Source: Thermococci archaeon
GTDB taxonomy: Archaea > Hadarchaeota > B88-G9
DNA length: 39,991 nt
NCBI GenBank assembly: GCA_003660555.1
Contig: QMUK01000003.1
Location: 1-39,991, forward strand
Reading direction: 5' to 3'
Shown: piece after piece, positions 4,243 through 6,546 of the stretch
How positions within the stretch are numbered: position 1 is the first letter of the stretch
Layout of the letters: each line of letters starts with the position of its first letter
The notes under the pieces: model-generated
Seen by the model: the letters and a program-made list of their open reading frames with translations, nothing else
The model's database searches: none
Told to the model about the DNA's origin: nothing
Position numbers and translations under genes: made by a program

Positions 4243-5592
4243 TCAACCGGACTGATAGTCCAATGGTGTCACTGAGAAATCCTCCCATCCAAGTGATTCA
4301 GACACTTTCTTTCTAGCGAATTCTGTCAACATTCCTAAAATCTCCTCTTTCCTACAATCAACTCTCGTAGGTACGTTAATTAGCCTATGGTTGGCACAAG
4401 CACCGAAGCAGGATGGTAATAGAGGACACTCCTTACAATCCCTCAGGGACGTGGCGTCATAGCATAGGAACTTCATTAACTCTTTGGAGTAGAAGTTGAC
4501 TCCTTCTCGAATGCTTCCCACGACTCCCTCTTCACTAGTTACCTTTTCCCAGCACTTACCTAGGGAACCATTTGGCAAAACCGTATATGCCCAAGGGTGT
4601 GTGGCAGTACAAACACTCGTCCTCATGGAAGGTAAAGTCGCAGGAAGTGGAAATTCCGAGCGAAATCTTCTTGAGAATTCCCTGAATCTATTTTCCTCTT
4701 CAATTTGTAATTCCGGATAACAAGCTCCTCTTCCTAGGTCCCGGTACCAATATCTGATAGGAGCGATTGAGAGGAATACCTCTTTGCCCCTCTCTTCCTT
4801 TAAGAAGTCTAACTCTTTCAGAAAGTTAATAGTAGACTTCAAACTTTCTTCATTGGCATCTCTCTCATCTAAATTCAATCTTATCAAGACTTTCAATCCT
4901 TTCCCGAGTATTGATTCAATTCCTCTTAGTATACTGTCCAGAACGCTTTCCCCATTCATCGTCCTCCTAGAGGAGTGTCTCTCTGGTGGCACCTCTAGGG
5001 TGACCTGCACCCACTCGATTCCCAAATCAGAGATTTCGTCACAGAATCTCTCCAAGAGGACTCCATTGGTTATTAATCCCGCGGAATATCCACTAATATT
5101 AGACAATTCATTAGAAATGAATTCAATGGCCTCCCAATTTAGTAAAGGCTCTCCACCATACCAAACGACGTTTATCCCTCTGAACCCATCAATTACACCA
5201 TTCACCCACTCTACTAATTTCTCGCATGTGTCTAAGTTCATCTCTTCGAATCCAGACTTATCCAATCCTTGGTAGCAATAGGGACACTGCAAATTACACT
5301 TGAGTGTAGGGAGTATCACCAGGTTCAGGATCCTGGACGAGAATCTGTAAAAGTTCCATTTAGCGTAGCAAATTCTCCTCTCATCTATTTCCTTTTCAAC
5401 TAAGAATCCGTGATCTATCAAGAATTCTAGGTCTTCTTTGTCTTTGGCTAGAGATGGTTTCTTCAAGACGCTGAGTAATTCATCATTTATTATCGCAGCA
5501 CTCTCTCTAAGAGAGTTCCAAACGAAGAATACCTCCTCATCCTCTCTTTTAACTGATAAAATAACGTTGTATGTGCTTGGTCTCAGCTTCAT
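4243..5592 (-). CDS. SPASM-domain radical SAM peptide maturase (candidate RiPP enzyme)
   Basis: A 449-residue protein in three parts. Residues 1-85 look like a small peptide-recognition domain, as in other SPASM maturases. The radical SAM core has C99-NLQ-C103-PY-C106, which binds the SAM-coordinating [4Fe-4S] cluster. The C-terminal SPASM domain has the full Cys layout: C, then G-SLGK-C, then CKECPLLPSCFGAC (C-x2-C-x5-C-x3-C), then a last C, enough for two auxiliary clusters. The WYGGEPLLN stretch is the usual second-strand motif. Family members form thioether or C-C bonds in ribosomal peptides. It starts 3 nt after a Cys-rich short gene, its probable substrate. An anaerobic sulfatase maturase-like role is less likely, as no sulfatase is present. 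Confidence 0.85.
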   Translation of the reverse strand: MKLRPSTYNVILSVKREDEEVFFVWNSLRESAAIINDELLSVLKKPSLAKDKEDLEFLIDHGFLVEKEIDERRICYAKWNFYRFSSRILNLVILPTLKCNLQCPYCYQGLDKSGFEEMNLDTCEKLVEWVNGVIDGFRGINVVWYGGEPLLNWEAIEFISNELSNISGYSAGLITNGVLLERFCDEISDLGIEWVQVTLEVPPERHSSRRTMNGESVLDSILRGIESILGKGLKVLIRLNLDERDANEESLKSTINFLKELDFLKEERGKEVFLSIAPIRYWYRDLGRGACYPELQIEEENRFREFSRRFRSEFPLPATLPSMRTSVCTATHPWAYTVLPNGSLGKCWEKVTSEEGVVGSIREGVNFYSKELMKFLCYDATSLRDCKECPLLPSCFGACANHRLINVPTRVDCRKEEILGMLTEFARKKVSESLGWEDFSVTPLDYQSG

Positions 5593-5595
5593 GGA

Positions 5596-5850
5596 TCACA
5601 CTGCCTCTTTGACTGGACTACAGTATATTCCACAGGTGAATTTACATGCTGGAATCTCGACAGTCAAGTTAGAACTACAGTCTCCGGCGGCATCGCTGGA
5701 TATGACTCTAGCTGGGTCCAATGTCAAAATCAAATCAGGCCCCTTGTATACGGATATTCTCTTGTTATACTCTCCTATGGTCATTTCACTGTCTTCCTCT
5801 TGATAGGACACTCGAGAGAGCTTGAGTCTGTTCCCTTCCGGAACTACCAC
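5596..5850 (-). CDS. Candidate RiPP precursor peptide with Cys-rich C terminus
   Basis: 84 residues from the GTG at 5850, which has GAGGTG 6 nt upstream. A GTG at 5859 in the same frame is part of that Shine-Dalgarno motif and is rejected. The first 50 or so residues are Cys-free, charged and strand-forming (leader-like). All four Cys lie in the last 24 residues, spaced C-x10-C-x3-C-x3-C (ACKFTCGIYCS), after an AAGD segment that could mark the leader/core junction. No signal peptide or membrane helix is seen. The gene is 3 nt upstream of the SPASM radical SAM enzyme, the usual precursor-maturase order. I recognise no named family. The alternative is a small metal-binding protein partner of the enzyme. 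Confidence 0.7.
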   Translation of the reverse strand: MVVPEGNRLKLSRVSYQEEDSEMTIGEYNKRISVYKGPDLILTLDPARVISSDAAGDCSSNLTVEIPACKFTCGIYCSPVKEAV

Positions 5851-5907
5851 ACGAATCACCTCATTTAGTTTTGATTTCCCGCGAATACAAAAACTTTTCT
5901 ATCAACA

Positions 5908-5934
5908 CTATATCTGATTTTTTCAAATTTAAGC
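5908..5934 (-). promoter_or_regulatory. Probable promoter region of the peptide/maturase pair
   Basis: The 90-bp AT-rich gap holds two minus-strand TATA-like blocks: CTTAAA (around 5928-5933) and GATATAG (around 5908-5914). They lie about 80 and 60 bp before the GTG start, leaving leaders of roughly 55 or 35 nt. I cannot tell which is used. Confidence 0.35.
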
Positions 5935-5943
5935 GAAACTATT

Positions 5944-5952: not shown

Positions 5953-6546
5953 TCATTTTTCGGACAGATACACACCAAAGCCAGACTCCTTCCCTATTTC
6001 TTTAGCGTTACCAAAATTTTCCTCCATTAATTCCATAATTCTCCTTCCACCCTTTCTCCTCCTTGCTACCATTTGTAGCACTCCACCTTTAAGGAGATGC
6101 TCCTTTGCTCCAGAGATTATCTCCTCGATAAGGGAGAATCCGGCGGAGATAGGAGGATTACAAATTATGGAATGAAATCTCTCTTCTTCAATGGGGTCAT
6201 AAAGGTGTCCTAGTCTCACCTCTGCATTCTCCACGGAATTCAGCACCAAGTTCCTTTTAGCTAACTCCACGGCCCTCTGGTTTACATCGGTCATCACCAC
6301 TCTCTTACAAAATCTGGAAAGAACTATACCTATCACTCCATATCCACATCCTAGGTCAAGTATCTCCCAATCTCTGCCCAATATGATATGTTTCAGCAAG
6401 ACTCTCGTTCCAGTATCTATTCTTCTATAAGAGAACACCCCAGGAGATGTTTGAAACGAGAAAACAAGTCCACGAAACTCGAACTTAATTGTAAATATTT
6501 TCTCTCTACTTTTAGGTCTCTCTGAGAAGTAATGGTTGAAATCCAT
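5953..6546 (-). CDS. RsmC/RlmG-like class I methyltransferase, probable RNA guanine-N2 methylase
   Basis: 197 residues with a Rossmann SAM-binding motif I (ILDLGCGYGVIGIVLS), an acidic motif II (MTDVNQRAVELAKRN) and the catalytic NPPI motif (ICNPPISAGF) used by methylases of exocyclic amino groups. It resembles the stand-alone archaeal homologues of bacterial 16S rRNA m2G methyltransferase RsmC. Its place 3 nt after cbf5, another RNA-modification gene, supports an rRNA or tRNA target. The exact site cannot be inferred. Confidence 0.8.
   Translation of the reverse strand: MDFNHYFSERPKSREKIFTIKFEFRGLVFSFQTSPGVFSYRRIDTGTRVLLKHIILGRDWEILDLGCGYGVIGIVLSRFCKRVVMTDVNQRAVELAKRNLVLNSVENAEVRLGHLYDPIEEERFHSIICNPPISAGFSLIEEIISGAKEHLLKGGVLQMVARRRKGGRRIMELMEENFGNAKEIGKESGFGVYLSEK

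Follow-up and report, generated by a model that had tools for sequence, protein, structure and literature searches.

Gene organisation of the locus

Within the window (the whole 39,991-nt stretch of DNA analysed here), a gene for a short Cys-rich peptide (5596-5859, minus strand) and a gene for a 449-aa radical SAM/SPASM enzyme on the same strand, which starts at ATG 5592 and ends at 4243, are separated by only 3 nt (5593-5595). The peptide is 87 aa long when read from GTG 5859 and 84 aa long from GTG 5850, and the latter is the better-placed start, with the Shine-Dalgarno sequence GAGGTG before it at a spacing of 6 nt; an internal ATG at 5784 with GAGGAAG upstream is a further possible start (62 aa). 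Both genes of the pair have good ribosome-binding sites, and a TATA-like stretch, CGCTTAAATT, found by eye upstream of the peptide gene (5926-5935, minus strand), is a candidate promoter. The sequence-only reading had described an 84-residue peptide with the pattern C-x10-C-x3-C-x3-C and all Cys near its C-terminus, followed after 3 nt by a radical SAM enzyme with a complete SPASM domain. The open reading frame at 5850-5596, together with the Cys triad and seven SPASM Cys of the enzyme, confirms this description.

Upstream of the pair, on the same strand, are genes encoding an RsmC/MJ0882-like methyltransferase and Cbf5/TruB, and downstream a tRNA-Ser gene is followed by rps13-rps4-rps11-rpoD. 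The methyltransferase gene (5953-6546) is apparently co-transcribed with truB (3-nt gap), and the remaining 27 genomes of the phylum yielded no match to it at E ≤ 1e-15. Neither an exporter or other transporter nor a protease adjoins the peptide and enzyme genes, as had been claimed from the sequence.

The maturase and its N-terminal domain

The enzyme, referred to below as the maturase, matches the radical SAM family of Pfam (PF04055) with an E value of 1e-18. Its top NCBIfam models are TIGR04463, Clo7bot, CefB, FlmE/OhkG and geopeptide (E 7e-54 to 2e-38), all below the cut-offs of the models. The best of them, TIGR04463, reached E 7e-54 and 183.2 bits against a cut-off of 525, and the scores were 159.3 bits for Clo7bot (TIGR04334, cut-off 600), 146.3 bits for CefB (NF038107, cut-off 600), 133 bits for geopeptide (TIGR04280, cut-off 400) and 68.3 bits for PapB (NF047865, cut-off 340). 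Maturases of the TIGR04463, Clo7bot, CefB and geopeptide groups align with the window enzyme over the full length, including the N-terminal domain, the radical SAM domain and SPASM, at about 27-29% identity, and their partners are likewise short Cys-containing peptides.

The maturase carries features expected of the radical SAM/SPASM RiPP class: the CX3CX2C core, present as the [4Fe-4S] motif C99-x3-C103-x2-C106 (5275-5298, minus strand), and the SPASM cysteines, present at residues 328, 347, 386, 389, 395, 399 and 413 (domain at 4354-4611, minus strand). In an alignment of the maturase with 16 relatives (17 sequences), the radical SAM triad is invariant, as are six of the seven SPASM Cys; the remaining one is nearly so. 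An AlphaFold2 model of the whole protein (pLDDT 84) gave CteB (5wgg) as its best Foldseek match (E 1.3e-14), with CteB and TigE closest over nearly the whole length and SuiB as a further near fold. VIA-align superposed the model on CteB with Z 25.2 over 386 residues, including an N-terminal part that is absent from the anaerobic sulfatase maturase. Thermocellin maturase CteB, the best whole-model fold, shares with the window enzyme the arrangement of leader-binding domain, radical SAM domain and SPASM domain.

The N-terminal part of the maturase (residues 1-88; 5329-5592, minus strand) was also modelled alone, with a pLDDT of 95. RRE or leader-binding domains make up nearly all of the top of its VIA-align list: the N-terminus of TigE (Z 8.9), MccB (6.8), TbiB1 (6.5), lasso B1 (6.5), McbB (5.4), PbtF (5.2), PqqD (4.6) and CteB (4.4). 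Except for that of TigE, the Z values are modest, and Foldseek by itself returned nothing at E < 0.001; the agreement across the list is nevertheless telling and points to an RRE-like, leader-binding fold. The leader-recognition (RRE) domain that a RiPP maturase is expected to carry or to have nearby is predicted here by structural match, and the earlier proposal that the N-terminus binds the leader gains support from the modelled fold of these ~88 residues.

Related cassettes in Thermococcaceae and other lineages

When 394 archaeal genomes were searched with the maturase, eight others had matches at E ≤ 1e-16, the best being in genomes G306 and G238. The Cbf5 protein of G306 matches Cbf5 structures in the PDB, which we take to be from Pyrococcus, at ~670 bits, so we regard this genome as Pyrococcus-like and its 94-genome family as most likely Thermococcaceae. 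Within these 94 genomes, three kinds of Cys-rich peptide adjoin the maturases. Type A precursors (32-36 aa; G306, G403, G406, G431 and G440, with a variant in G466) end in CG-x-FC-[NS]-P-[VI]-K, and their genes are followed by those for the maturase, an ABC ATPase and, in the loci that were read further, an ABC-2 permease. Type B precursors are about 70-77 aa long with 12-13 Cys, and type C precursors are recognised by NCBIfam as CefA (NF038108). The sequence-only reading had stated that few such systems are characterised in archaea. Pairs of this kind are themselves not rare, with at least three precursor families in Thermococcaceae, one of which is the known CefA. Predictions of radical SAM RiPP clusters in many archaea are on record, and a 2025 survey reports that experimental validation had until then reached only two haloarchaeal lanthipeptides (PMC12144867). 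In the literature on Clo7bot, TIGR04463 and radical SAM RiPPs of Thermococcus and Pyrococcus that our search covered, drawn largely from outside the subscription journals, we found no treatment of these cassettes.

The type B family, MEFEIIERGSGEGIAGN..., is found at L029:1213-1434, L044:1203-1415, L045:2841-3053, L046:1150-1383, L049:2886-3113 and L051:2218-2433, always adjoining a CefB-like maturase (that of L029 scores 343 bits against the cut-off of 600); one type B peptide that was scanned had no NCBIfam match and only a sub-cut-off match in Pfam. Leaders beginning MEWIV/MKWIM-(E/N/K)P are common to maturase-side peptides of Aminicenantes and Thermococcaceae (L056:6375-6763, L030:877-1077, L054:1081-1296), which is another cross-domain resemblance. 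Further arrangements were seen among the collected loci. Four related SPASM maturase genes of about 430-450 aa each stand in tandem in Methanosaeta sp. PtaU1.Bin112 (L057:2359-7699). In a Zixiibacteriota locus (L066:6392-6900), a maturase is followed by a tandem of three 40-aa peptides carrying a GCCC cluster, likely a precursor array, and the one scanned had no family match. In a 0.6 Mb archaeal genome (G097; L005:2539-2715), a SPASM maturase follows a 58-aa peptide that has three Cys and ends in a tail rich in Asp and Glu.

The precursor peptide and its conserved core

On its own, the window peptide has no credible match in Pfam, NCBIfam, PHROGs or the PDB, and tblastn searches of plasmids and phages for it returned nothing, in agreement with the earlier view that it lies outside known families. 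It lacks the leader of Clo7bot peptides (MKFIKKPARKFEEG), and it does not match CefA, a precursor with a Cys at every fifth position, whereas the CefA peptides of Thermococcaceae do. Among ranthipeptide patterns, neither the C-x3-D repeat of freyrasin (PapB) nor the SCIFF pattern is present.

A profile was built from the five Thermococcaceae type A peptides, each beside a related maturase, with the window peptide left out. Searched against all frames of the 1.3-Mb genome to which the window belongs, this profile placed the window peptide first (17.7 bits, E 0.006), and the runner-up had an E value of 0.67. An E value of 0.006 would be unimpressive over 394 genomes, but here the target was named beforehand. 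In a local test, the C-terminus of the peptide scored 17.2 bits, the best of 20,000 shuffles 11.3 bits, and the next best of 1,080 frames of the window 8.8 bits. The stretch aligned to the profile is FTCGIYCSPVKE (5605-5640, minus strand), which corresponds to F-[TI]-CG-x-FC-[NS]-P-[VI]-K of the Thermococcaceae peptides. Across the 94 Thermococcaceae genomes, the profile gave five strong matches (E < 1e-17), which are its training rows, and a sixth in G466 (E 4e-4), all beside a maturase; there was no other strong match in these genomes.

Several weaker matches to the profile were noted. Those archaeal matches at E 3e-4 to 3e-3 that were inspected, in G243, G101 and G124, are antisense to SRP54 or another gene and were rejected as chance. 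In G336, 12 weak matches fall at the same profile positions (e.g. G336:C24:288-326), mostly in ~55-aa frames and many near contig ends, and probably represent a repeat family. A weak match in G409 (C1:515101-515157; L180) has a type A-like leader, MDELIVLAGGKFGWEEMNFF, without the CGxxC core, in a genome that has no strong type A maturase match, and is possibly a decayed precursor.

The core is also found in a bacterium. In Aliicoccus persicus (Bacillota, L080), a short peptide ending ACGTFCSPIKTGPTPP is encoded 0.15 kb downstream of a SPASM maturase. A six-frame motif scan of all fetched loci (2.4 million residues), with a chance expectation roughly estimated at about 0.15 matches, returned the window peptide, the type A peptides, the Aliicoccus peptide and one looser chance match. 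The corresponding degenerate DNA pattern occurs once in 40 whole genomes with related maturases (~134 Mb), at the Aliicoccus site. The core CG-x-[FY]-C-[NS]-P-[VI]-K thus ends five Thermococcaceae precursors and one Aliicoccus precursor, always beside a maturase, and its invariant portion is the CGx[FY]C pair. The window peptide has the same architecture, being a short precursor with a conserved core directly adjacent to a SPASM maturase and ending in this motif.

Since the core motif is common to the peptides of the relatives, the conserved part of the window peptide is its last C-x3-C with the flanks. Conservation of all four Cys, as the sequence-only reading had anticipated, held in part: judged by sequence comparison, the last two (CGIYC), which are C76 and C80 when counted on the 87-aa form, belong to the shared core, and the first two are private to the window peptide.

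Outside the core, the systems diverge. The type A cassette resembles the window in having its CGxFC[NS]P[VI]K precursor directly upstream of a SPASM maturase, but this maturase is ~25% identical to that of the window, ABC ATPase and ABC-2 permease genes follow, and the leader (MEELIVLEKG..EPNF) is ~20 aa long, compared with an N-terminal part of ~60 aa in the window peptide. The Aliicoccus pair recalls the window in that a SPASM maturase has as its neighbour a short peptide with CGTFCSPIK close to its end; it differs in its bacterial host, in the position of the precursor gene downstream of the maturase gene, and in the GNAT and MFS-like genes that come next. No convincing alignment could be made between the leaders of the peptides from the window, Thermococcaceae and Aliicoccus.

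Distribution and evolution of the gene pair

Across the other 27 genomes of the phylum, the precursor had no match and the enzyme gave only partial matches in the radical SAM region (about 27-33% identity), so orthology of the pair within the phylum was rejected; no close orthologue of the pair was found in any genome searched. In the readable relatives of the phylum, the interval from truB to tRNA-Ser/rps13 is short or holds unrelated genes. The pair occupies a variable slot in an otherwise conserved ribosomal gene array. Because its GC and GC3 match those of the neighbouring genes, any acquisition of the pair was not recent. Bacterial contamination was likewise rejected, given the position inside an archaeal ribosomal array and the neighbour-like GC and GC3.

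Maturase trees were poorly resolved, with long branches. The window maturase fell in a 13-row set (96/92) with bacterial, Clo7bot/TIGR04463-like and type C archaeal enzymes, and the type A and Aliicoccus maturases fell in another set (90/93); the window maturase is sister to neither. Given that the leaders do not align and the maturases are not sisters, the shared core is perhaps convergent or exchanged. A common core with unshared leaders and enzymes would fit an ancient core, module exchange and convergence alike, and is the least explained feature of the system.

Discussion

Taken together, the pairing of the genes, the family of the maturase, its predicted RRE fold, the profile match and the occurrence of the core beside maturases in three lineages indicate that the window very probably carries a minimal radical SAM RiPP cassette of a precursor and a SPASM maturase, the reading first made from the sequence and now supported by the RRE fold, the family scores and the conserved core beside maturases. 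It is credible as a SPASM RiPP system whose precursor family is undescribed, not as an unknown kind of system.

According to the proposed mechanism, the precursor would be translated as an N-terminal leader and a C-terminal core ending ...CKFTCGIYCSPVKEAV, and the maturase would hold the leader through its RRE-like N-terminal domain. A hydrogen would next be taken from a residue of the core by the 5'-deoxyadenosyl radical that the radical SAM cluster generates, and the carbon that loses it may be joined through an intramolecular thioether to the sulfur of a Cys kept close to the SPASM auxiliary clusters, most probably one of the CGIYC pair. An unlinked protease might then remove the leader, and the product might be exported or used via unlinked functions. 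The docking, hydrogen abstraction and sulfur-carbon bonding steps follow what is established for CteB/PapB-type enzymes, as reviewed in PMC11002830. The residues conserved around the second core Cys, and hence candidates for attack, are an aromatic residue, Asn/Ser, Pro and Lys, with no C-x3-D motif. That the product stays in the cell, as had been suggested, is not compelled, since type A cassettes carry an ABC exporter and this genome has other ABC ATPases (at least a dozen matches); a homologue of the type A ABC-2 permease was not detected in it, which is a weak test.

Within the RiPP reading, thioether formation from Cys is likely by analogy, and the label "ranthipeptide/sactipeptide" given earlier is a guess at chemistry beyond what sequence settles. 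The best family scores of the maturase all belong to maturases of Cys-rich peptides (TIGR04463, Clo7bot, CefB and geopeptide), and what stays invariant in the core is precisely the CGx[FY]C pair. Both points speak against a different product, such as a C-C or C-O cyclophane, an epimerised residue or another Cys-derived ring, with the Cys acting as radical quencher or left free. Such an outcome is rather unlikely; in its favour, SPASM maturases as a class perform all these reactions, TigE and SuiB stand among the nearest folds besides CteB, and cyclophane-forming families appear in the NCBIfam list at lower scores.

It is considerably less probable that the peptide is a small protein that binds metal or forms disulfides, or else an unrelated reading frame, and that the enzyme acts on something else. 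Four Cys with a C-x3-C-x3-C spacing could bind metal, and an N-terminal part of ~60 aa is long for a leader when the Thermococcaceae leaders have ~20, but the RRE fold, the profile match and the same core beside maturases in three lineages speak against such a protein. We consider it very improbable that the maturase serves a precursor elsewhere, its neighbour being a relic or decoy. Other precursors could be absent from the assembly, which is a draft in 150 contigs; against this, the two genes are 3 nt apart and no second credible profile match was found in the genome (next E 0.67).

On the RiPP cassette reading, this archaeal system is compact, with just two genes and a defined core motif, and so easy to test, and a core common to archaea and Bacillota yields a concrete hypothesis on which residues are modified. 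The Thermococcaceae versions occur in a lineage that includes cultivable hyperthermophiles. We suggest, tentatively and as somewhat the less probable case, that CG-x-[FY]-C-[NS]-P-[VI]-K represents one RiPP scaffold, and that diverged maturases of two archaeal phyla and of Bacillota all install an identical small cross-linked ring. If so, there would have been strong selection on the scaffold while leaders, enzymes and export genes were swapped around it, and a radical SAM RiPP scaffold would be common to both domains.
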